NCBI GenBank assembly: GCA_022759065.1
Contig: JAEMPZ010000259.1
Location: 1-15,563, forward strand
DNA: 15,563 nt
Direction: 5' to 3'
Source: Acidobacteriota bacterium
GTDB taxonomy: Bacteria; Acidobacteriota; UBA4820; DSQY01
The notes beneath the pieces were generated by a model. It worked only from the letters and a program-made list of their open reading frames with translations, was not told the DNA's origin and made no database searches. Each line of letters starts with the position of its first letter. The first letter of the stretch is position 1. Of this stretch, positions 2,877 through 15,561 are shown piece after piece. The translations under genes and the position numbers were made by a program.

Positions 2877-4265
2877 TCATTTCAATTGGGCTTCGGAGCC
2901 TTCCAGGCTGAACTTCTTCAGCCTGTACCTGAGCGTGTCACGCGTCAGGCCCAAGAGCCTCGCCGCCCTGCTCTGGTTGCCTCCGGCCCGCTTAAGCGCC
3001 TGCTCGATAAGGCTTCGCTCGACCTCTTCCAGCACGACGCCCTGCGGGGGGAGCTCGAAGCGCTGCTCGATGTCTTCCTCCGCCTGTCTGCCGATGATTT
3101 CCCGCGGCAGGTCATCAACGTCTATGACCTCTTTGTTTTCGAGGATCATGACCCGCTCGATGAGGTTCTTCAGTTCGCGCACGTTGCCCGGCCAGGAATA
3201 TTCGGTGAGCGCGAGCATTGCCGAGCGGCTGGCGCCGAGAGTGTTCTTCTTGAATTCGCGGTTGTAGTGCTCTATGAAGTGCTTTACAAGAAGAGGAATG
3301 TCCTCGGGCCGCTCTCGAAGCGGGGGGAGGCTTATGGGCAGAACGTTCAGGCGGTAGTAGAGGTCCTTGCGGAAACGGCCTTCCTTCGCCACCTGCTCCA
3401 GGCTTACGTTCGATGAGGCGATCACCCTGACGTCAACCGCTATGTCCGCTACGCCGCCGATTCGCTTGAACGTCCTGTCTTCCAGGAGGCGAAGCAGCTT
3501 GACCTGGATGTTTTCGCTGATCTCGCCCACCTCGTCCAGAAATACGGTGCCGCCATCGGAAAGCTCGAAGATGCCCTTCTTGGTTCCACCGGCGTCCATG
3601 GAGCCGCCCTTCTCCTGGCCGAAAAGTTCGCTTTCGAGGAGCGTCTCCGGAAGGGCGGAGCAAGTAATGGTCATGAATGGTTTTTTCGCGCGGTCAGAGG
3701 CGTAGTGGATCGCGTTCGCCAAAAGGTCCTTGCCGGTGCCGCTTTCGCCCTGGAGCAGAATGGTCGTGGCGGACGACGTGGCGATCTTTCTCACGAGGTC
3801 GAAGACCTCTCGCATCTTCAGGTTGTGGCCGACCAGGTTGCCAAGGCCGAACCTCTCCTCGTGTTCCCGGCGGTAGCGTCCAAGCTCCCTCTTCAGCGCG
3901 GTCGTTTCGAGGGCTTTCTGGATAGTGACGAGGATCTCGTCCATTTCAAAAGGCTTGTTCAGGTAGTCGAAGGCCCCGAGTTTCATCGCCTCGATGGCGC
4001 TTTCCACCGTGGAGTATGCCGTCATCATTATCACCGGCAGGTCCCTGAAACGCTTGCCCACTTCACGAAGGACCTGAATGCCGTCCATGTCGGGCAGGCG
4101 GTAATCCAGAAGGAGCAGGTCCACCTGGGTTTCCTCAAGAGCTTTCAGCGCCCCGGCGCCCTTGTCGCTCTCAAGCACCCTGAAGCCTTCCTTCGTCAAG
4201 CGGTTCGCAAGGGACCAGCGTATAAGCTTCTCGTCCTCTACCAGAAGGACAGTCTCGTTCGCCAT
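2877..4265 (-). CDS. NtrC-type response regulator with degenerate GAFTGA loop
   Basis: A 462-residue DNA-binding response regulator in three parts. Residues 1-125 are a receiver with acidic pocket Glu10/Asp11/Glu12, phospho-acceptor Asp54, Thr82 and Lys104. Residues 143-385 are an AAA+ domain with Walker A GESGTGKD (173-180) and Walker B GGTVFLDEVGE (238-248). Residues 408-455 are a Fis-type helix-turn-helix (GGNQSRAARLLGLTRDTLRYRL). Length and order match NtrC/ZraR relatives. The odd point is loop L1: the GAFTGA that contacts sigma-54 reads GGSMDA (220-225), although the flanking ELFGQEKG and FELSDGGT are intact. I chose the ATG at 4265 because it overlaps the kinase stop codon (TAATG) and has an AGAGGAA site; a longer reading from 4340 would lie inside the kinase gene. 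Its partner is surely the kinase just upstream. Target promoters are not visible. Confidence 0.95.
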   Translation of the reverse strand: MANETVLLVEDEKLIRWSLANRLTKEGFRVLESDKGAGALKALEETQVDLLLLDYRLPDMDGIQVLREVGKRFRDLPVIMMTAYSTVESAIEAMKLGAFDYLNKPFEMDEILVTIQKALETTALKRELGRYRREHEERFGLGNLVGHNLKMREVFDLVRKIATSSATTILLQGESGTGKDLLANAIHYASDRAKKPFMTITCSALPETLLESELFGQEKGGSMDAGGTKKGIFELSDGGTVFLDEVGEISENIQVKLLRLLEDRTFKRIGGVADIAVDVRVIASSNVSLEQVAKEGRFRKDLYYRLNVLPISLPPLRERPEDIPLLVKHFIEHYNREFKKNTLGASRSAMLALTEYSWPGNVRELKNLIERVMILENKEVIDVDDLPREIIGRQAEEDIEQRFELPPQGVVLEEVERSLIEQALKRAGGNQSRAARLLGLTRDTLRYRLKKFSLEGSEAQLK

Positions 4266-6535
4266 TAGACATTCCTCTTTTCGGCAGGCAGGCGGATGGT
4301 AAAGACCGTTCCCTTGCCTGGTTCCGACGAAACCTCGCACCAGCCCCCGTGCCCGCGGACGAGGCGCTGCACGATAGAAAGGCCAAGCCCGGTTCCCACG
4401 TGCTTTGTCGTGAAGAAGGGCTTGAACATGTTTGCCATCACTTCCGGAGGAATCCCCGTGCCGGTGTCCGCCACGGTCATTACGACGGAATCCTTCTCCG
4501 CCCTGGCGTCAACCGTCACGGTCCCGCCATCTGGCATCGCCTGCGTCGCGTTCGTCAGGAGGTTGGCTAGAACCTGCTGAATCTGCAGCGGGTCGGCGAT
4601 AACGTTCGGAAGGTCCTCGCGGACAAGATTCTTGAAGGCGACGCCCGGGGAAGAGAGAGCTTCCTTGCAAAGGCCGACGGAAGCTTCCACGAGAAGGTGA
4701 ACCGGCACCGGTTCGGTCCGAAGGTTGAGCGGCCTGGCGTAAGCAAGGAGATCTTTTACGAGGGCGTCAAGGCGGCGAATCTGGGAAAGGGCCTCGCGAA
4801 AGATGGCAAAGCGCGGGTCGCTCTCAACGTGCACGCGGCCCATTACCTCCATCGCTCCCCGAAGGCCGGCGATCGGGTTCTTTATCTCGTGGGCGATTGA
4901 GGCCGCCAGCCGGCCAAGCTCCGCAAGGTGTTCCGCCTCGCTGAGCTGGGCCTGCAGGCGCTTCAGTTCGGTAACGTCTTTCAAGACGTAGGAAACGCCG
5001 CGTTCGGCGGCGCCGGAAATCTCGGTTCGAGTCACCAGCAAGTCAATGGCGCGCCCGTTTCCCCGCACCGTATATTCGAAACGCTCGGAGGCCGGCAGGT
5101 CTCCCTGCGCGGGCAGGGCGGTCGTGTGTTCGGGCTTGAGAAACGTCTCAATGGGTTTCCCCAGGGCCTTGTCCGCCTGTATCCCGAATATCAGCGCGGC
5201 GCCCCTGTTCCATGAAGCGACGTGGCCTTGGGAATCAACCGTGATGAGCCCGTCCGTTGAGCCGTGGAGGAGCGAAAGCAGGTAGCGGTCTCTCGAAGCC
5301 ACCTCTTTTCTGAGCGCCTCTTCGATGCTTATGTCCTGGGCGAAGCCCATCGTGCCGATGACCTCGCCGCGTTCATCCTTGAGAAGGCTTGCCGTGAGGC
5401 GCACCGGGACCGTCAATCCCTTCTTGTCGCGAAAGGCGGTGACGGTGTCGCGCACGAAGCCTTGTTCCCGCAGGGAACGGGTGATGCGGGCCGCCTCGGC
5501 TCGCCCGCCGACGTAATAGTCCGAGACGCGGGCGCCGAGCACCTCCTCCTCGCTCAAACCAAAAACGCGGCTTGCCGTGCGGTTGAAAACGGTGATGCGC
5601 CCCTCCGTGTCGGTCGCTATGATCGCGTTCACCGACGAATCGAGGATATTCCGGACCATCTCGCGCGTTCGAGCCAGGGAACGCTGCGTCTCCTGTTGAG
5701 AGGTAATGTCCAGAAATATCTGCATGACGTGCGGCCCTTTCACCGCGGCAAAAGTAACCGGGCGGACGAGCATCAGATAATCGCGCGTCGCGCCGGGAGC
5801 CCCGGTTTGAACAAGCCGCTGGACCGTTCCTTGGGCGATCTCATTCTCAAATTGGGCCGACTCCTTGCACTCCGCGCACCCGAGGCGCAGGACGTGGGCG
5901 CAAGGCCGCCCGACGGCGCGTTCGGGGGCGACCGCCAGCAGGTCGCGAGGCATTCCGCGGTTCATCCATATCACCTTGAGGCTGGAGTCCAGAAGGATTA
6001 TCCCCACGTTCATCGCGGCGAGAATCTGATCGAGAATGTCCCATTCCTGCTGAAAACGGGCGGCGCCCACCTCGCAGGCTTCGAGTTGCCGCCGAGCCTC
6101 GGCTTCGCGCCTTTCCGCCTGCATCTGGAACGCGTCCAAGAGCCCGTAAAGCGCCTGATTGAAGGCCTGTTCAACCATGTCGCGAGCTTCGGTTTTTGAC
6201 GCGAGCCTTGAACTTGCGATCCTCTTGAGGAGCGTTCGTCGCCCCGCTTCGAGCGCGCGCGCCAGGTCGGAGATGCGAAATCCCTGCTCAAGGCCATAGC
6301 CGGCGAGAGTCTCGCAAAGGGGTTGCATCGGCTCGGGCAGGCCGCCCTGCCATCCGGAAACGGCGCTCTGAACGCAGGCCGCTGTCATCTTCAAAAGGCG
6401 CGCTTTGTCAAAAGGCCTGAAGGAAGGGATCTCCGCTGGAAGCGCGCTGCTCCAGTCGAGCGCCCACCGCGCCTCCGAGCGCTTCAGCCACGAATCAAAC
6501 GAGATGCCCGGCGCTTTAACGGCTGTCGGCGTCAT
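4265..6535 (-). CDS. Soluble multi-PAS sensor histidine kinase
   Basis: A 756-residue histidine kinase without membrane segments or signal peptide, so cytoplasmic. Residues 40-150 form a helical region resembling RsbRD-type N-terminal sensor domains (tentative). Three PAS domains follow, at about 165-285, 290-405 and 412-525. The HisKA domain has phospho-acceptor His549 (SIAHEIKNPIAGLRG). The HATPase domain has N-box NLLTNATQAM (658-667), G1 DTGTG (690-694), FFTT (707-710) and G2 GTGLGLS (714-720). All catalytic boxes are intact. The first PAS carries a Cys212-X7-Cys220-X2-Cys223 cluster that could hold a metal, heme or redox switch. The gene overlaps the hydratase gene by 20 bases and shares one base with the regulator gene, so translation is coupled on both sides. 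Its ribosome site is weak, as expected for coupling. Signal unknown; an internal redox or metabolic cue is the natural guess. Confidence 0.94.
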   Translation of the reverse strand: MTPTAVKAPGISFDSWLKRSEARWALDWSSALPAEIPSFRPFDKARLLKMTAACVQSAVSGWQGGLPEPMQPLCETLAGYGLEQGFRISDLARALEAGRRTLLKRIASSRLASKTEARDMVEQAFNQALYGLLDAFQMQAERREAEARRQLEACEVGAARFQQEWDILDQILAAMNVGIILLDSSLKVIWMNRGMPRDLLAVAPERAVGRPCAHVLRLGCAECKESAQFENEIAQGTVQRLVQTGAPGATRDYLMLVRPVTFAAVKGPHVMQIFLDITSQQETQRSLARTREMVRNILDSSVNAIIATDTEGRITVFNRTASRVFGLSEEEVLGARVSDYYVGGRAEAARITRSLREQGFVRDTVTAFRDKKGLTVPVRLTASLLKDERGEVIGTMGFAQDISIEEALRKEVASRDRYLLSLLHGSTDGLITVDSQGHVASWNRGAALIFGIQADKALGKPIETFLKPEHTTALPAQGDLPASERFEYTVRGNGRAIDLLVTRTEISGAAERGVSYVLKDVTELKRLQAQLSEAEHLAELGRLAASIAHEIKNPIAGLRGAMEVMGRVHVESDPRFAIFREALSQIRRLDALVKDLLAYARPLNLRTEPVPVHLLVEASVGLCKEALSSPGVAFKNLVREDLPNVIADPLQIQQVLANLLTNATQAMPDGGTVTVDARAEKDSVVMTVADTGTGIPPEVMANMFKPFFTTKHVGTGLGLSIVQRLVRGHGGWCEVSSEPGKGTVFTIRLPAEKRNV

Positions 6536-7325: not shown

Positions 7326-8618
7326 TCAAGTTTGAAATACGCCGGTTTTGAGCGGCGGCACGTCGGGATTCAGGGCGGCTATGTCAAGCGCCCTGATCAA
7401 CGCTTCCCTTGTCCTGGCTGGCTCTATGATGGCGTCAATCCACAGCCGGGCGGCTCCGTACTTTGGGTCGGTCGCTTCCGTGTAACGCTGCCTTATTTCG
7501 AGAAGCGCCTGCTGCTTTTCATCTTCGGTGATGGTTTTGCCGTTTTTTCGAAGCTGCGAAAGCCGGATGTCCAGTAGCGTGTTTGCCGCCTGGTCGGCGC
7601 CCATGACGGCGTATTTAGCGGACGGCCAGGAGAAAAGGAATCGCGGGCTGTAGGCACGGCCACACATGGCGTAGTGGCCGGCGCCGAAGGAGCCGCCAAG
7701 AATGACGGATATTTTGGGAACTTCGGCGTTGGAAACGGCGTTGACCATCTTTGCTCCGGCCCTTATAATTCCCGCGTATTCGGCGTCCCTTCCCACCATG
7801 AAGCCGCTGACGTCGTGAAAAAAGAGAAGCGGTATTCTCTGCTGCGCGCAATCAAGGATGAAGCGGGCCGCCTTGTTGGCGCTTTCGACGTAAATGACCC
7901 CGCCTATTTCTACGGGTTTCCCCTTTTCCTTCATGTGGGTCTTCTGGTTGGCGACGACTCCAACCGACCAGCCGCCGATCCTGCAATAACCACAGACGAT
8001 GGTGCGGCCATACTCAGCGCGGTATTCCGTGAAGGCGCTCGCGTCCGCAACGCGCGCGATGATCTCGCGAACGTCGTACTGCCCCGAGGATGATTCGGGG
8101 AAAATGCCGTATATCTCGTCAGCCGAATAGACGGGCTCCTCCGGCGTTTCGCGGCGAAACGCCGGAGGCGGCGGTGGAGCGAGGTGAGATGCGACTTCCC
8201 GGATGCGCTCAATGCACGAGGCGTCATCCTTCTCTCTGAAGTCAACGGTTCCGGAAACCGCGGCGTGTACCGTGGCGCCGCCAAGCTCCTCGGAGCTGAT
8301 GGATTGGCCTATGGCCGCCTTAACAAGGGCCGGGCCTCCGAGGTAGAGCCCTGATCCATCCGTCATCAAAAGGGTGTCGCACATCACGGGGAGATAGGCG
8401 CCGCCCGCGACGCACGAGCCCATGATCGCTGCTATTTGGGGGACGCCCTGGGCGGAAAGGCGCGCGTTAAGGTAAAAGACGCGGCCGAAGTCGTCAATGT
8501 CTGGAAAGACCTCATCCTGGAGCGGGAGAAAAACTCCCGCCGAGTCCACCAGATACAGGACGGGCAGGTGGTTTTCCAGCGCGATCGTCTGGGCTCGTAT
8601 GACTTTTTTCGTCGTCAT
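7326..8618 (-). CDS. Acyl-CoA carboxylase carboxyltransferase subunit, C-terminal part (frameshifted)
   Basis: This 430-residue reading frame is the main body of a biotin-dependent acyl-CoA carboxylase beta (carboxyltransferase) subunit, most like methylcrotonyl-CoA carboxylase. Visible landmarks are VDSAGVFLPLQDEVFPD (24-40), the first oxyanion-hole stretch GSCVAGGAYLP (67-77), GGPALVKAAIG, EELGGATVH, and the second oxyanion-hole stretch GGSFGAGHYAMCGRAYSP (308-325). The first ATG overlaps the stop codon of the N-terminal frame as ATGA, but family alignment shows that this Met is internal: the preceding residues lie in the other frame. Adding one T to the five-T run at 8623-8627 (A on the plus strand) would join the frames into a normal protein of about 554 residues. 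No biotin carboxylase or biotin-carrier subunit is in the window. It is either a sequencing error, a real mutation, or two coupled polypeptides. Confidence 0.85.
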   Translation of the reverse strand: MTTKKVIRAQTIALENHLPVLYLVDSAGVFLPLQDEVFPDIDDFGRVFYLNARLSAQGVPQIAAIMGSCVAGGAYLPVMCDTLLMTDGSGLYLGGPALVKAAIGQSISSEELGGATVHAAVSGTVDFREKDDASCIERIREVASHLAPPPPPAFRRETPEEPVYSADEIYGIFPESSSGQYDVREIIARVADASAFTEYRAEYGRTIVCGYCRIGGWSVGVVANQKTHMKEKGKPVEIGGVIYVESANKAARFILDCAQQRIPLLFFHDVSGFMVGRDAEYAGIIRAGAKMVNAVSNAEVPKISVILGGSFGAGHYAMCGRAYSPRFLFSWPSAKYAVMGADQAANTLLDIRLSQLRKNGKTITEDEKQQALLEIRQRYTEATDPKYGAARLWIDAIIEPARTREALIRALDIAALNPDVPPLKTGVFQT

Positions 8619-8627
8619 CGGGAAAAA
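8615..8627 (-). other. Single-base frameshift site in carboxylase gene
   Basis: The N-terminal frame reads through TVKAGPF and then ends at TGA (8615-8617). The family sequence would continue as a second Phe, Pro and Met into the downstream frame. A run of five T residues (minus strand, 8623-8627) precedes the junction, and six would restore the frame. The stop and downstream ATG overlap as ATGA, the layout used for translational re-initiation. The zero-frame codons do not form a canonical X-XXY-YYZ slippery heptamer. Confidence 0.8.
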
Positions 8628-8989
8628 GGCCCGGCCTTCACGGTCGCGTCATTTGCTATGATCATAAAAAGGCGGCCCTGGATGAGCCCCGTCCCGGTGA
8701 TCACTCCGGCTGCTGGCGCTCCACCCCATTCCTGGTACATGTCGTGGGCCGCGAAGAGGCCGAGTTCTTGGAAAGAGTCCTCGGAGTCCAGCACCAACGC
8801 TATGCGTTCGCGCGCGGTCATCCTGCCTTTTTCATGCTGCTTCTTTATCGCCGGTTCGCCGCCCCCTTGTCGCAAGATGGCCTCAAGGTCGCGGATTCGC
8901 CGAACCATGTCAAGGTTGGCGTCCCGGTTTTTTTTGAAGTCGAGCGAATTTTTTCTTGCCGGGGCAATTGCGGTTTGGAGTTTAGTCAA
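8615..8989 (-). CDS. Acyl-CoA carboxylase carboxyltransferase subunit, N-terminal part (frameshifted)
   Basis: These 124 residues are the start of the same carboxyltransferase subunit. They include a helical lead-in, the KGRMTARERIALVLD motif typical of acyl-CoA carboxylase beta subunits, and the GVITGTGLIQGRLFMIIANDATVKAG segment of the first crotonase-like half (only short parts are quoted as markers). The last two or three residues before the stop are out of frame and meaningless if the frames are really continuous. Translation begins at TTG 8989 with a strong GGGAGGAGG ribosome site (8994-9002), and an extended -10 promoter lies just upstream. On its own this fragment lacks both oxyanion holes and could not be active, so function depends on joining with the downstream frame. 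Confidence 0.84.
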   Translation of the reverse strand: MTKLQTAIAPARKNSLDFKKNRDANLDMVRRIRDLEAILRQGGGEPAIKKQHEKGRMTARERIALVLDSEDSFQELGLFAAHDMYQEWGGAPAAGVITGTGLIQGRLFMIIANDATVKAGPFSR

Positions 8990-9486: not shown

Positions 9487-11631
9487 TCACCTTATGTCGC
9501 GCCGGACTTCGATGACGCCGGCGAGGCGGGATAACTGGCGCAGGATCTGGCTGAGGTGGGCTTTATCCCTGACCGCCAGGACGAGCTTTATCCGCCCTTC
9601 GCCGCCCCCCGTGAGCACCCCCTCGATGTGTCTGATGCCCGCCTTGTGGTCGGACACGACTTTGGTCACCGAGGCGACCATCCCCGAGCGGTCTTCAGTG
9701 TGGAGAGTTACTGGAACGTCGTGAAGCGCCGGGGCGTTCTCTGAAACCGGTTCCCAAGCGACCTCGAGTATCCGGTCAGGGTTATAGGAGAGCCTCTGTA
9801 GGTTCTTGCAGGTGGCCCTGTGAACGACCAGCCCTTTCCCGCGGCTGATGAAGCCGACTATTTCATCGCCGCGTATCGGCTTGCAGCACTTGGCCAGCGT
9901 GGTCAATAGGTCGCTCGCGCCCCTGACGATTATCGGCGCGCCCTTTGAGGGCTCCATGTGAGCTTCAACAAGCGCCGCCGGTATTGTCTCCTGATCGGCA
10001 ACGAGGCGCCGGGCGATCGTCCGCGCGGCCACCTTTCCGTAGCCTATTTCGGCGTAAAGGACGTCCAGGTCGGCCAAGGCGAGTTTCTTCAAGAGATCCG
10101 CGACGCGTCCTGCTTCCTGCGCCTCTTTTAAGTGGACTTTGAGCCTGCGGCATTCGCGATCCAATGAAGCCTTGCCAATCTCTATGGCGCGCAATTTCTC
10201 TTGCTGGTTGAGCCATCCCTTTATTTTGCTTATCGCGCGGCTCGTCACGACACAGTCCAGCCAGTCTCGGGAGGGCTTGCCGCCGGGGCTTGTCACGATT
10301 TCAACCCGGTCGCCGCTGTTAAGTTTGGTCTTCAGCGGGACCAACTTGCCGTTTATCTTGGCGCCCGTGCACTTGTGGCCGATCTCCGTATGAACGGCGT
10401 AGGCAAAATCAATCGGAGTGGCCCCGTGAGGGAACGACATCACCGTGCCTTTGGGCGTGAAGACGTACACCTCTTTAGGGAAGAGGTTCACGCGGAGGTT
10501 TTGGACAAATTCCGCCGAGTCCTGGCTTCCCTGGCGGATCTCATCAAGCTGCCGCAGCCAGGCGATCGTCGCCTCTTCGTCCTCTTTTGTCAGGCGCCCT
10601 TCCTTGTATTTCCAGTGGGCCGCTATGCCGTTCTCAGCTTCAGCGTGCATCTGCCACGTGCGGATTTGAATTTCAAATGGCTGGCCGTTTGAACCTACGA
10701 CCGAAGTATGGAGCGAGCGGTAGTGATTATCCTTGGGGATGGCGATGAAATCCTTGAAGCGCCCCGGGATCGGCTTCCAGAGCGTGTGGATGCCGCCAAG
10801 CACGGCGTAGCAATCTCTGACCTCCTCGACCAGAATCCTGAAGGCCATGTAGTCGTAGACCTGTTCCACGGCAATCGCCTGGCGCTGGAGCTTCTGAAAT
10901 ATGCTGTAAAGGTGCTTCGTTCTCCCGCGCACCTCCCCTTTGACTTGAAGCTCCGCCAGTATTTTCTCCAGGGTGGCCCTCGTCTCCTCCAGAAACCCTT
11001 CGCTGTAGGTTCTCTTGGCCGAGAGTGCGCTCGTAAGCCGGGCGTAATCCTCGGGGAAACCGTAGCGAAAGGAGAGATCTTCAAGTTCGGTCTTCATTTT
11101 GCCGAGGCCCAGGCGGTATGCTATGGGCGCGTAAATCTCAAGCGTCTCCTTGGCTTTGGCCGGGCGCTTCTCTTGCGGAAGCGCGTCCATGGTTCTTAGG
11201 TTGTGCAGGCGGTCGGCCAGTTTTACGAGGATTACCCTGATGTCATCCACCATGGCGAGTATGACCTTGCGAAGCGTCGCCCATTCGTTTCGCTCGCCGC
11301 CGGGAAGCTTTTCCTCGATCTTGGTCAGGCCTTCGACGATGTGCGCCACTTCATCGCCGAAGCGCTTTTTGATTTCCGAGAGGCTGACCGAGTGGTTGTC
11401 TTCGACCACGTCGTGAAGAAGGCCCGCCACGAGGGCCACGTCGTCCGCCTTCAGTTCGGCCAGGATGTCGGCCACGGCGATGGGATGAACCAGGTATGGT
11501 TCGCCGGAGTATCTAGTCTGCCCCTCGTGGGCCATGGCTGAAAAAAGGTAGGCGCGTTGAAGCAGCTTGTCGTCAGAGGAAGGGTTGTAAAGCTTGACCT
11601 TCTCTATGACGTGGTCTATTCGCGGCAGCAT
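9487..11631 (-). CDS. rel: Bifunctional (p)ppGpp synthetase/hydrolase, Rel/SpoT family
   Basis: A 714-residue stringent-response enzyme that makes and degrades (p)ppGpp. The HD hydrolase domain (about 25-175) is intact, with His49, HDVVED (73-78) and Asp140 in ADRLHNLR. The synthetase domain (about 230-345) has GRTKHLYSIFQKL (236-248), Asp260 and EIQIRT (320-325). A TGS domain (about 384-446) holds the conserved HTEIGHKCTGAKING stretch. A conserved cysteine region (KCCKP, 581-585; Cys608) and an ACT domain (about 637-714) complete the long Rel layout. Both activities should therefore be present, unlike synthetase-only RelA. I placed the start at ATG 11631 because family members begin just before RIDHVIEKV and a GGAGAGG site precedes it. 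A longer start at ATG 11706 also has a good GAGGAAGG site and would add 25 unmatched residues. Confidence 0.95.
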   Translation of the reverse strand: MLPRIDHVIEKVKLYNPSSDDKLLQRAYLFSAMAHEGQTRYSGEPYLVHPIAVADILAELKADDVALVAGLLHDVVEDNHSVSLSEIKKRFGDEVAHIVEGLTKIEEKLPGGERNEWATLRKVILAMVDDIRVILVKLADRLHNLRTMDALPQEKRPAKAKETLEIYAPIAYRLGLGKMKTELEDLSFRYGFPEDYARLTSALSAKRTYSEGFLEETRATLEKILAELQVKGEVRGRTKHLYSIFQKLQRQAIAVEQVYDYMAFRILVEEVRDCYAVLGGIHTLWKPIPGRFKDFIAIPKDNHYRSLHTSVVGSNGQPFEIQIRTWQMHAEAENGIAAHWKYKEGRLTKEDEEATIAWLRQLDEIRQGSQDSAEFVQNLRVNLFPKEVYVFTPKGTVMSFPHGATPIDFAYAVHTEIGHKCTGAKINGKLVPLKTKLNSGDRVEIVTSPGGKPSRDWLDCVVTSRAISKIKGWLNQQEKLRAIEIGKASLDRECRRLKVHLKEAQEAGRVADLLKKLALADLDVLYAEIGYGKVAARTIARRLVADQETIPAALVEAHMEPSKGAPIIVRGASDLLTTLAKCCKPIRGDEIVGFISRGKGLVVHRATCKNLQRLSYNPDRILEVAWEPVSENAPALHDVPVTLHTEDRSGMVASVTKVVSDHKAGIRHIEGVLTGGGEGRIKLVLAVRDKAHLSQILRQLSRLAGVIEVRRDIR

Positions 11632-11655
11632 GAGCCGGCCTCTCCATGGTCTTAT

Positions 11656-11684
11656 AGCATAAGCGTTTTCCCGCTTGGCGGCAA
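11656..11684 (-). promoter_or_regulatory. Candidate promoter of rel
   Basis: On the minus strand TTGCCG (11679-11684) and TATGCT (11656-11661) are spaced by 17 bases, each matching consensus at four of six positions. An overlapping alternative -10, TGCTATAAG, lies a few bases further on. It fits translation from ATG 11631; if the longer start at 11706 is used this promoter would be internal. Confidence 0.45.
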
Positions 11685-11699
11685 GGGCGGGCCAAATCG

Positions 11700-11748
11700 T
11701 TGACATGGTGCCTTCCTCTTCGTATAGTGTATGCGTTGGGTTAGGAGG
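11700..11748 (+). promoter_or_regulatory. Sigma-70 promoter and ribosome site of the chemoreceptor gene
   Basis: A perfect TTGACA (11700-11705), a 17-base spacer and TATAGT (11723-11728) form a strong sigma-70-type promoter. A consensus AGGAGG ribosome site follows at 11743-11748, five bases before the TTG start codon. The strength is notable, since chemoreceptor genes in many bacteria use the flagellar sigma-28 promoter instead. It points away from the rel promoter in a shared region of about 120 bases. Confidence 0.82.
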
Positions 11749-11753
11749 TCGCC

Positions 11754-14700
11754 TTGAATACGCGGATCTTGGTGAGGGGATTGCTCGCGACGGCCGGCTG
11801 GTTCGTCCTCAGCCTACTCTTTGGGCTGGTGCTGCTTCCAGGCGAAGCGCGCGGCGCGAAGCTCTGGAGCTATCTGGCTATTTTGTCGGTCATCTTCGGT
11901 TTTGGCGCCGCGTGGTACGCCGAAAATCTTAGGCGCGGGTACCGAAAAAGGCTCGACCGCGTGATGTCGGCGATGGTGGCTGGCAACCTGGCGGCCGGAG
12001 TGGACCAGGAACAGTCGGGCCTCCAGGCTGATTTCCCCGTATTGCCGAGGCTTTTGAGGACCTTCAGGAACCTGATAGCCTATCTCCAGGGGACGAGCCA
12101 CAACGTCTCAGAGGTGTCCGTTACTCTCGCGAAGAAAACCCGCCAGCTAAGCGCCGACGCCAACGAACAGGTCTCTTCGGTCGAGAAGGCAAACGCCTCC
12201 ATCAAGCAGCTGGATCGCGAGATCGGCACCGTTGTCGAGCAGATGGACTCACTCTCCGGGTTTACAGAGCAGACGAGCTCATCCATCCTGCAAATGCGCA
12301 GCTCAATACAGGAAGTGGTTGAAGCCTCGCAGCACCTTGCTGAATTCGTTGACGAAATCGCCGCGAGCATGACCGAGATGGCCCGCTCCATCGAGGAGGT
12401 GGCCTCCCATTCTGACGGCCTTTCATCTTTCGCCATAGAAAACGCCTCCGCCATGGTTGAAATGGATGCCACGACAAGCCAGATTGCTGAAAACATCAAG
12501 GAGACGGAGGCGCTTTCAGGGCAGGTTGCCAGGGTGGCGCAAGAGGGTGGAAACACAGTCAAAGATACCGTCGGGGGACTGGAGAAGATACAAGAAGCCG
12601 TCGAGGGCACGGTCAAGGCCATTGAATCCCTGGGTTCCCGGTCGCAGGAGATCGGCAAGATATTGAAGGTGATCCGAGACATAGCCGACCAGACCAACCT
12701 GCTCTCCCTTAACGCCGCGATAATCGCCGCGCAGGCTGGGGAGCACGGGAAAGGCTTCGCGGTCGTGGCCGAGGAGATACGGGAGCTCGCTGAACGCACG
12801 GCGGCTTCCACGGCGGAGGTCAGCGAGATCGTCAACGCCATCCAGAAAGAGGCCACGGCCGCGGTGCGCGTTACCAGGGAAGGCATGGACCGGGTTCAGG
12901 AAGGAATGGCGCTTGGGAAGGCATCCGAGGAGAGCCTGCAAAGGATCCGAGAGGCGATCGGGCTGGCAGCGACCAGCATCAGCCACATAGTCAGGGCGGC
13001 GGCCGAGCAGTCCAAGAGCTCGCGCCAAGTCACTGAGGCAATCGAGGAGATGACAAAGCGGGTCGAACGGATCTCCGTGGCCACCCGCGAACAGGCAAAC
13101 ACCAGCCAGATGATTTTAAAGAAAACGATGACGATGAAGGAACTGACCCAGGCGGTGCAACAGGCCGCGACGGATGAATCCGCCGGCAGCGATACGATCA
13201 GCCGCGGGATGGAAAGGGTTAGATCTTCAGTGGAAACAAGCCACCAGGCGCTTCTAGGCATGTCAAAGGCCAGCCAGCGCATGGTGGAGGCGGTGCAGGT
13301 GATATCGGGCGCGAGCATGCAGACCCACGGCAGCGCGCGCGATCTCGCTTCCGCCGCCTCCCTTTTGAGGCAGGAATCGCTTCTCCTGGCCGAAAGGCTT
13401 GGAGGATTTGTCCTCCCCGCGCCGAACCGGGGCGGACAGCTAACGATTGGCTTAGTGGCATACAACTACAACCTCGACCCGGCTTTTGCCAATAACGTCA
13501 GGGACGGCCAGCTTTGCCACGCCTGGGGGGAAGGGCTTTTGAAATTCGGCGACGACACGCGGCTGCTTGCGGGATTGGCTGAATCGTGGGAGGTCAACTC
13601 GGAAGGGACGCTCTACACTTTCCACCTTAGAAAGAATGCCGTTTTTCACAACAACAGGCCGGTCACGGCGCAGGACGTGCTTTTCTCGTGGCACAGGTCC
13701 TTAAGCCCCAGGTTGACCGGAAGCTCGCAGTGGTTCCTTTCCGCGGCTGAAGGCGCGCTGGAGTACATGGAGGGAAGCGCCCAGAAGATCACAGGCCTCA
13801 AGGCGCCGGACGACCGGACGGTTTCGGTCAAGCTGAAGGAGCCGGTCGCCTTTTTCCTTTACATGCTGACGACGCCGGAGGCGTTCATTCTTCCGAGGGA
13901 AGCAGTGGATGAACAGACCCTGCAGATCACGCAATACATCGGCTGCGGGGTTTATAAAGTGGCCGAAACCTCGAGGGAAAAGGTCACTCTCACGCGCTTT
14001 AACGGCTACTATGACCAGTCCGTGGGCTTTGCCGACCGGGTCATTTTCGACTACGGCTCCGCGTCGGAAGGAGAAGTGCTTGAGGGCCTGCGAGAAGGCA
14101 GGCTCCACGTCGCCCTCTCGCTCTCCAACGAGGCTCTTGAGGATTTGCTCCAGGACCCTGCTTGGGAAAGCAACACCGAGTCTACGGTGCTGCTCAACAC
14201 GCAAATCGTCGCCGTCAGAAACGACATGGCGCCTGGCAACATCAAGGAGTTCAGGCAGGCGCTCAATTACGCCGTGGACCGCCAGGGGCTGCTTTCCGGT
14301 TATGCCCACTCCAGGGTGACGCCCGCAAGGGGGATATTGCCCCCAGGGATGCTTGGATACCGTTCCGACAGGCAGGGTTACGCCTATGATCCCGATAAGG
14401 CCAAGTGGCTCTTGGGCCGCGCCGGTTTCCAGGGAGGCCTTGACCTGGCCATCCAGGTTGACACGAGCCGCCAGTCGCAATACCAGGAGTTTCAAAAGCT
14501 CGTCACCATGTTCGGCGACGTGGGCGTGAGGATCAAATTGGAACCCTTGAGCCACGAAGCCTTTGAAGCCAGAAGGCGCCAGTCTGGCCGGCCGTTATTG
14601 TACTCGACCGGGTGGTATGCCGATTTCCCCGACCCGGACAATTTCTTCTACGTGCTCTTCCACCGCAAGGGGGGCGACGCGCTGGACCTGCGCTACTCCA

Positions 14701-14945
14701 ACCCGCAGCTCGATGAGATTATTGAAAAGGCCCGGCGCTCGCTCGACATGGACGAGAGGACCGAACTTTACCACCAGGCCGAGGACATCGTAGTCGAGGA
14801 AGCGCCCTGCGTCTTTTTATACCACAACTGGGGACGCGTCCCATTCAGGCCGGAAGTGATGGGCATGAAGCTCTCCCTCACGCCGCCACTTTTAAGGCCA
14901 GAGCACGTATGGCTCGCCGGCGCGGGGAAAGAGGGTAAAGGGTGA
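11754..14945 (+). CDS. Chemoreceptor fused to a family-5 solute-binding domain
   Basis: A 1063-residue fusion. Membrane helices are at about 8-28 and 38-56, joined by a loop of some ten residues, so there is no periplasmic sensor. A HAMP-like segment (about 60-112, with [10 protein letters not shown]) leads into a methyl-accepting chemotaxis signalling coiled coil (about 115-550). Its hairpin tip is [18 protein letters not shown] (313-330). Residues 560-1055 form a complete peptide/nickel-type extracytoplasmic binding fold (SBP_bac_5). It begins [19 protein letters not shown] and includes LAESWEV (607-613), [25 protein letters not shown] (quoted in part as [12 protein letters not shown]), and [13 protein letters not shown] (953-965). 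Positive residues before helix 1 and after helix 2 predict both ends inside the cell, so the binding domain should be cytoplasmic. SgrR, a regulator with a cytoplasmic family-5 domain, is a precedent. No frame break joins the halves. Start is TTG 11754 with AGGAGG. Likely output is CheA/CheW signalling in response to an internal solute. Confidence 0.93.
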
Positions 14946-15006
14946 AGGGTGGGCGTTAGAAGTTAGACGTGGAGAGTTATGAGTTAAGAGTTAGGAGTTA
15001 TGAGTT
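14930..15006 (+). repeat. Degenerate heptamer tandem array over the chemoreceptor stop codon
   Basis: Eleven 7-base units run in unbroken phase. The first three have the core GGGT (14930-14950), the next three are transitional, and the last five have the core GAGTT (through 15006). The fifth base is G in all eleven units, and the last base is T in ten. The array includes the last residues (KEGKG) and TGA stop of the chemoreceptor gene. A further near-copy, GAGTTGA, ends at 15008. Confidence 0.7.
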
Positions 15007-15037
15007 GAGGTGCTAATATTTTACCAACTCAAAACTC
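14995..15037 (+). terminator. Stem-loop between convergent genes
   Basis: The last heptamers (14995-15006) pair with AACTCAAAACTC (15026-15037) with one mismatch. The stem extends through GGT/ACC (15009-15011 with 15023-15025), leaving a two-base bulge and an 11-base AT-rich loop. This gives about 14 base pairs in the space between two converging genes, where a terminator is expected. There is no clean T tract after it, so it may act in both directions or only stabilise transcript ends. Confidence 0.45.
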
Positions 15038-15076
15038 ACAACCAATGCTATTACCGCGCATGGAAGGGCATATTTC

Positions 15077-15108
15077 ACTCTCTCACCCTCTGACTTTCTC
15101 ACTTTCTC
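15077..15108 (-). repeat. Four tandem octamers, consensus GAGAAAGT on the minus strand
   Basis: Read on the minus strand, four uninterrupted 8-base units (two exact GAGAAAGT, two variants) begin six bases after the stop codon of the small right-edge gene. The tract is almost purely purine on that strand. It has a different unit length from the heptamer array 70 bases away. Confidence 0.65.
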
Positions 15109-15114
15109 GCTTCC

Positions 15115-15510
15115 TTACTCAAACCGGAATCGCTTGAGCGCCTTGGGGTTGACGTATATCTGAAGATTGTTTGAATTTGGGTTGAGCGGCGTCACGAAAA
15201 ACCCTCTTGAAGGGGCGGCTTCCAACGTGGCGATGCCCATCAAAACCTCGCCGTCAGTGAACTCCATTCGCACTTTTCTCCCAGGAACCGCCTGGTAAAT
15301 AAGTGGCGGAGGCGGGCGGTGGGTATTTTGGCTGTCCGTGACGAACTGCTTCACGAAGCAGACCATCTTCACCGCGGACAATTCAATGGTTCGCATCGGC
15401 CCGTCGCATTCAGTAACCATGATCCGCTCATCCGATGGCAGGAAGTTGTCCCCGAAAGCTTTCAAAACCGTCCCATCCAGAAAGCGAATGACCATCCTGT
15501 CGTCAAACAT
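15115..15510 (-). CDS. Small uncharacterised protein, LDG...VKMVCFVKQF type
   Basis: A protein of 131 residues from the chosen ATG, soluble and rich in beta-strand-like segments, with no signal peptide or membrane helix. It has a twofold feel: MVIRFLDGTVLKAF in the first half and VRMEFTDGEVLMGI in the second share a strand-turn-strand pattern around a central DG. The first half ends in IELSAVKMVCFVKQF. Small proteins with an LDG...VKAVFFVKDF layout occur in deltaproteobacterial genomes, as far as I recall, without assigned function; I cannot name the family with certainty. The frame stays open to the window edge (possible TTG at 15561), so a longer protein is possible. I chose ATG 15510 because a candidate promoter lies just before it, though the ribosome site is weak. 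It converges on the chemoreceptor gene. Confidence 0.7.
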   Translation of the reverse strand: MFDDRMVIRFLDGTVLKAFGDNFLPSDERIMVTECDGPMRTIELSAVKMVCFVKQFVTDSQNTHRPPPPLIYQAVPGRKVRMEFTDGEVLMGIATLEAAPSRGFFVTPLNPNSNNLQIYVNPKALKRFRFE

Positions 15511-15532
15511 CAGAAAGTGACCTAAAGGGCAC

Positions 15533-15561
15533 AGTCTACACCTCGCCGAACGCGGGGACAA
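15533..15561 (-). promoter_or_regulatory. Candidate promoter of the right-edge gene
   Basis: On the minus strand TTGTCC (15556-15561) and TAGACT (15533-15538) are 17 bases apart, each matching four of six consensus positions. The first transcribed base would be about 16 bases before ATG 15510. The match is modest and lies at the very edge of the window. Confidence 0.3.

Follow-up and report, generated by a model that had tools for sequence, protein, structure and literature searches.

A family of chemoreceptors with a DppA/OppA-type solute-binding domain, probably cytoplasmic, joined to the end of the C-terminal coil arm

We analysed a 15,563-nucleotide stretch of DNA from an Acidobacteriota bacterium (contig JAEMPZ010000259.1), referred to here as the window, in which one gene joins a chemoreceptor to a family-5 solute-binding domain. 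The window is the entire contig 14 of a genome of 1.91 Mb that lies in 275 contigs and is 86.5% complete. The fusion gene (11754..14945, + strand, as are all features of the fusion given below) starts with TTG and is an open reading frame (ORF) of 1063 amino acids that is free of internal stops. Its product matches two Pfam profiles, MCPsignal (151 bits, with the best stretch at residues 260-435) and, further on, SBP_bac_5 (226 bits, residues 607-973). An earlier reading of this DNA by a model, which we call the original prediction, had described a receptor followed by an intact family-5 domain in a single uninterrupted frame, and this is what we find.

The fusion is widespread. A protein search with the binding domain scored the best 7993 candidates, and both domains are present in 53 of the 120 matches listed (the best 120 of 197). 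The full-length alignment holds 52 clusters including the window's own; P0019, which is truncated, and P0049, P0073 and P0091, which have no MCP domain, were left out. The 51 homologous clusters are 28-85% identical to the window protein, align with it from one end to the other and have their domains in the same order. Among 79 loci in genome contigs, 23 hold the fusion: twenty as one open frame whose match runs from residue 115 or earlier to residue 1048 or later, two ended by a contig edge and one broken into two frames. They fall in the Acidobacteriota (Aminicenantes, Blastocatellia, Holophagales and Thermoanaerobaculia) and the Myxococcota (Myxococcus, Pyxidicoccus, Corallococcus and Archangiaceae). 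A full-span match is present in at least 27 of 297 genomes of Acidobacteriota, our own included, and one genome has two (28 matches); this count is a lower bound because scoring was limited to the top two candidates of each genome. One stop codon lies within the matched stretch in three of the 28 (G081, G010 and G026), and split or cut copies in G124, G229 and G109 stand outside the 27-genome count. In the window's own family the fusion occurs in nine of nine genomes, one copy being cut at a contig edge. The nearest relative, L024, also shares with the window both the divergent rel neighbour and the gene downstream of the fusion. A chimeric assembly, which the original prediction had named as a possible artefact, and chance are both ruled out by the recurrence of the same fusion in many independent assemblies.

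One member of the family is already in print. McpK (MXAN_6456) of Myxococcus xanthus appears in Table 1 of Moine et al. (2014; PMC3945109, cited here from part of its text) as an orphan receptor of 1048 amino acids in which an MCP domain (246-463) is paired with a ‘bacterial extracellular solute-binding proteins domain’. It has the same domain pair as the window protein, to which it is about 28-29% identical. Locus L086, from another M. xanthus strain, encodes a 1048-residue fusion of the same family, which we take from its sequence to be McpK. The original prediction knew of no characterised chemoreceptor with this order; the architecture had in fact been tabulated, unremarked, in 2014. The same paper assigns McpK to class 44H, whereas we count coil arms of 234 and 224 residues in the family, including in the Archangium homologue P0081. 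All mcp genes of M. xanthus were targeted for deletion there, and only mcpC could not be deleted; in the part of the text available, mcpK is mentioned in neither group, the mutants with defective motility or the five that showed no defect. Fruiting was impaired in at least 13 mcp mutants, so the mcpK mutant may be one of these. That part of the text contains nothing specific to McpK's binding domain or to its side of the membrane, and we found no further study of the MCPsignal plus SBP_bac_5 architecture in the open-licence literature.

The receptor half of the family has a coil of fixed length. As read from the full-length alignment, the N-terminal arm, identified by MCPsignal (residues 97-330; 12042..12743), and the C-terminal arm (residues 331-554; 12744..13415) measure 234 and 224 residues, and each length is kept in 51 of the 52 sequences. 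The signalling tip lies at residues 312-349 (12687..12800). L015, L018 and L019, three ordinary receptors encoded in this genome, align along the entire coil and end at position 554 or within about 4 residues of it, which sets the end of the C-terminal arm. From tip to end they have 225-228 residues, compared with 225 in the window protein. A fourth receptor, L017, has a classical tip and only 155 residues from tip to end, so that the coil length of the fusion is matched by three of the four other receptors of its genome. Equal coil length of the fusion and L015, L018 and L019 is as expected if they share arrays. The receptors at loci L018 (175-2799, - strand) and L019 (5581-8127, + strand) have a NASIIAAGAGEHG tip and several predicted membrane helices.

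The family-5 domain (residues 555-1056; 13416..14921) starts where the ordinary receptors of its own genome end. In our reading of the family pattern, residue 555 or thereabouts is also where a mature binding protein would start after its signal peptide, and the two boundaries together suggest that a complete receptor end has been joined to a complete mature binding protein. No hydrophobic stretch that could serve as a signal peptide or lipobox lies ahead of the binding domain in the window protein. The predicted structure of this part matches the fold of DppA/OppA-type peptide-binding proteins, with a predicted local distance difference test score (pLDDT) of mostly 80-95, and profile and fold alike place it in family 5. 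Among NCBIfam profiles, DppA scores 136.9 bits, and SgrR gives a weak partial match of 29.7 bits over residues 602-754.

Asp957 of this domain (14622..14624) aligns with Asp408 of DppA, which we take to bind the amino end of the peptide, and is Asp in all 52 fusions. It belongs to the motif W-ADYPDPDNF, among the most conserved parts of the binding domain, in which W954, D957, P959, D960, P961, D962 and F964 are invariant (52/52). Thr904 aligns with DppA Arg355, presumably the residue that binds the dipeptide carboxylate; two residues on, Arg906 is Arg in 37 of the 52. Four conserved positions, Gly599, Phe700, Thr816 and Leu867, are specific to the fusions. Separate genes for solute-binding proteins, L021 and L022, are found in the same genome.

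At the other end of the protein, the membrane part is reduced to a helical hairpin (residues 8-57; 11775..11924). Hydropathy was scanned as a simple 19-residue mean with a cut-off of 1.6 rather than with a trained topology predictor. Two hydrophobic helices, at about residues 8-28 and 36-57, are some 9 residues apart, and the structural model has helices at 2-27 and 35-75. In the window protein the segment that follows (residues 57-110; 11922..12083) has no Pfam HAMP match at E<=1. It can nevertheless be aligned, with a single small gap, to the Pfam HAMP domain of the sister receptor L015, and its Gly77 is invariant (52/52). The label HAMP-like, given in the original prediction, seems fair for what would be a degenerate segment.

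Nothing after the hairpin looks able to cross the membrane again. Beyond residue 500 the window protein reaches a 19-residue mean of at most 1.03, and no stretch reaches 1.6 in the coil of any of the 52 members. Four members (P0048, P0050, P0052 and P0056) have no hydrophobic N-terminal helix, with best N-terminal means of 0.29 to 0.82, and loci L029 and L044 are likewise without a hairpin or hydrophobic N-terminal helix. Because the tip must meet CheA inside the cell, no crossing stretch follows the hairpin and some members have no membrane helix, a cytoplasmic binding domain is strongly indicated. The original prediction had placed it there on topology, and the members without a membrane segment reinforce that placement.

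We also compared the binding domain with its relatives in two trees, both of which are quick searches with an arbitrary root and no bootstrap. Tree 1 contains 63 of 144 extracted domains, picked for spread (L034 was dropped, no domain having been extracted); tree 2 has 52 rows, also hand-picked, with both domains of P0049, P0065, P0073, L109, L110 and L111. Tree 1 unites 25 receptor fusions with three domains (from P0049, P0065 and P0073) in a group that has a Shimodaira-Hasegawa-like approximate likelihood ratio test (SH-aLRT) value of 100 and stands apart from 25 of 25 free proteins and ten other multidomain ones. In tree 2, a branch with SH-aLRT 99 divides 19 fusions and 12 domains from 14 free and 7 other multidomain rows. 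The 12 domains, those of P0049, P0065, P0073 and L109-L111, form one group (99) beside four myxobacterial fusions. In both trees the four myxobacterial fusions lie next to the kinase-type domains and two changes are required for the fusions; a single origin is not rejected (approximately unbiased test, p-AU 0.245).

Among the proteins that group with the receptors, P0065, L109, L110 and L111, the last three from genomes of Acidobacteriota, are giants of 1835-1963 amino acids. Each combines a Ser/Thr kinase and an AAA domain with a C-terminal pair of family-5 domains, and none has a stretch at 1.6 hydropathy. They differ from the fusions in the kinase, the ATPase and the doubled binding domain. 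P0049 and P0073 have two binding domains and no kinase match, and may be cut. The grouping suggests that a single cytoplasmic branch of family-5 domains may be common to the receptor fusions and the kinases. Six other multidomain proteins (P0090, P0096, P0098, P0105, P0108 and P0112) combine PF00211, presumably a nucleotide cyclase, and PF13191 (AAA_16) with a terminal family-5 domain. In five of the six, a borderline hydrophobic stretch (1.64-1.77) lies shortly ahead of that domain; these proteins are perhaps another branch of intracellular binding domains.

We propose that the fusion is an array-forming chemoreceptor with a cytoplasmic DppA/OppA-type sensor at the C-terminal end of its coil, and we put the probability of this explanation, with all of the following steps, at roughly two in three. 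The receptor would be held on the inner side of the membrane by the minimal hairpin, which some relatives lack. Its C-terminal arm would return from the tip to the membrane-near end, and because it runs back up, the binding domain would come to lie beside the HAMP-like segment, where signals normally enter. A cytoplasmic ligand, with a short peptide favoured, would then close the two lobes, closure would twist or shift the joined C-terminal helix, and the change would reach CheA and CheW at the tip through the four-helix bundle. Type IV pilus motility or other non-flagellar behaviour would be the output. We infer lobe closure as the trigger, predict a peptide ligand with moderate confidence and favour this output weakly.

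A direct precedent for such an arrangement is TlpD of Helicobacter pylori, in which changes at the tip accompany changes at the C-terminal CZB domain, more than 140 Å away (PMC12871147, from the part of its text available). Like the fusion, TlpD has an intracellular ligand-binding domain at the C-terminal coil end, coupled to a distant tip; unlike the fusion, its domain is a small zinc-binding one, the protein is fully soluble, and the coil is about half the length of that of Tsr. By this analogy the fusion most likely works as TlpD does, with its sensor at the membrane-near end of the coil. The phrase ‘after the signalling tip’ in the original prediction is true of the sequence but would not hold for the arrangement in space.

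Several observations do not sit easily with this proposal. First, the tip does not have the classical Glu/Arg pair. In all 53 fusion rows shown it has Ile or Leu plus Gln (Ile plus Gln in the window protein), at two positions that we take to be the trimer contacts Glu385 and Arg388 of Tsr, and this departure leaves the signalling partners uncertain. The sister receptors have Ile plus Gln (L015) or Ile plus Gly (L018 and L019), which would make the tip type a trait of the class and not damage. Second, several coil stretches of the structural model fall below pLDDT 50 (182-227 and 428-471), and the geometry of the binding domain relative to the coil is for this reason beyond the model's reach. 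Third, the anchor Asp is also found in 47 of 53 free, transporter-type relatives and is thus, alone, no proof of a peptide ligand. Fourth, helix 2 of the window protein stays below the 1.6 cut-off in the whole-chain scan; of the two membrane helices with almost no periplasmic loop in the original prediction, the hairpin with its loop of about 9 residues stands and the second helix is weak. Across the family helix 2 reaches 1.6 in 34 of the 48 hairpin-bearing members and 1.3 in 47 of them, P0081 attaining only 1.24. A single helix alone would place the rest of the protein outside. After helix 2 the window protein is positively charged, a feature that not every relative shares. Finally, Moine et al. 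(PMC3945109) list McpK with three predicted membrane segments, in which case its C-terminus would be outside; in our scan L086 has two membrane stretches and a borderline one (1.43) in the coil after the tip.

One alternative would make the binding domain a module for docking or structure, its pocket a relic, that contacts another protein at the inner face of the membrane, for example a transporter or a partner receptor. The fusion-specific residues Gly599, Phe700, Thr816 and Leu867 could form a protein contact, and it would agree with this alternative that no conserved transporter gene is recognised beside the fusion. A relic pocket should drift, however, and the invariance of the W-ADYPDPDNF residues makes us regard a purely structural role as unlikely.

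A second alternative, to which we give a similarly low weight, is that the receptor does not serve taxis, and that its non-classical tip feeds a system for exopolysaccharide, development or gene expression. This has been proposed for McpK, which Moine et al. place in the Dif system; as far as the available text goes, that assignment comes from phylogeny and length class and not from an interaction assay (PMC3945109). Our genome contains CheA, CheW, CheR, CheB and CheC genes and several receptors. FlhA was not found, an absence that is unproved at 86.5% completeness. This and the Ile or Leu plus Gln tip in every fusion row shown would suit a role outside taxis; against it, the family of ATPases that serves type IV pili and type II secretion has ten matches in the genome, so that surface taxis is possible. 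A non-flagellar output is likely.

The third alternative, an exported domain acting as a periplasmic sensor with the hairpin or a single helix as an odd anchor, would fit the weak helix 2, the three segments listed for McpK, stretches of 1.6 to 1.9 within the binding-domain part of a few members (P0043, at 1.63 the only one of the 52, and the frames at loci L031, L033, L036 and L044) and the solved relatives listed, almost all of which are by name binding proteins of transport systems, but it is very improbable given a tip that must be cytoplasmic to reach CheA, a coil and a junction with no candidate crossing, four members with no N-terminal helix to cross with and nearest tree neighbours that are kinases with no 1.6 stretch of their own.

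A sigma-70-like site, TTGACA-17-TATAGT (11700..11728, 11 of 12 matches), and a ribosome-binding site, AGGAGGT (11743..11749), precede the TTG start of the fusion gene, and the promoter-like block and AGGAGG are nearly unchanged in L024. The ‘strong promoter and ribosome site’ of the original prediction are thus located and conserved in this relative, but the promoter-like site, the only one in 11550-15100, occurs there at the frequency expected by chance (0.9, mean in shuffles). A rel/spoT-family gene (9487-11706, - strand) is divergent from the fusion gene. The -35 element overlaps the first listed rel start, and the true rel start may be further in. On the downstream side, the fusion gene is followed by the gene for a DUF6982 protein (15115-15561, - strand), whose L024 copy is 82% identical over 131 amino acids.

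The wider neighbourhood gives little guide to the ligand. The original prediction had offered an OPT peptide transporter gene as a hint; it lies on the opposite strand at a distance of 8.9 kb, with unrelated genes in between, and no OPT match occurs at any of the 23 fusion loci within up to 9 kb per side, so we set it aside. This was the sole permease gene recognised in the window. Among the fusion loci, only L024 has both the rel neighbour and the downstream gene of the window. NtrC-type matches at L025, L030, L042 and L043, and one kinase-type match at L025, are at least 3.6 kb from the fusion, and no common neighbour was recognisable among the ORFs around eight of the 23 loci, as judged by their first residues and without a Pfam scan. 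Next to the OPT gene of the window, a histidine kinase with a PAS domain and a response regulator of the NtrC type are encoded in overlapping frames (2877-6535, - strand). A Carboxyl_trans carboxyltransferase (7326-8989, - strand) is spread over two overlapping frames of 124 and 430 amino acids that meet at 8615-8618 and cover profile positions 1-73 and 77-483; a frameshift, a sequencing error and a true split are the candidate explanations.

Among known systems, DppA and OppA proteins are exported and serve ABC importers, whereas the domain of the fusion has no signal peptide and is joined to a coil. SgrR uses a family-5 domain as a sensor inside the cell; it is a transcription factor and not a receptor, and its profile is not the closest one. 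A survey of binding proteins states in general terms that such domains are also sensors in cytosolic and membrane signalling proteins (PMC9602780); the part of its text available names no chemoreceptor of this kind and does not contain the words ‘fused’ or ‘fusion’. With the architecture itself in print, what is new here is the breadth of the family, its fixed geometry, and the trees that set its domains and those of the kinases apart from the exported ones sampled.

Family-5 proteins are the textbook outside half of nutrient uptake, reached by receptors across the membrane. In a conserved family with the domain inside the cell, at the far end of the coil, a chemoreceptor array would take its input from a large two-lobe clamp that is well understood, and McpK makes internal sensing experimentally approachable in M. 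xanthus, a laboratory organism for which mcp deletions exist. The kinase-borne domains that group with the family suggest that there is a wider class of intracellular sensors, so far little studied. It is conceivable, though we hold it to be somewhat less than an even bet, that one branch of family-5 domains moved into the cytoplasm as an intracellular peptide sensor and was reused by two signalling systems that are unrelated, chemoreceptor arrays and giant Ser/Thr kinases, with lobe closure in the receptors acting on the C-terminal coil end and cells steering by their internal peptide pool rather than by their surroundings. More generally, the family suggests that some bacteria may steer by an internal ligand, perhaps a peptide.

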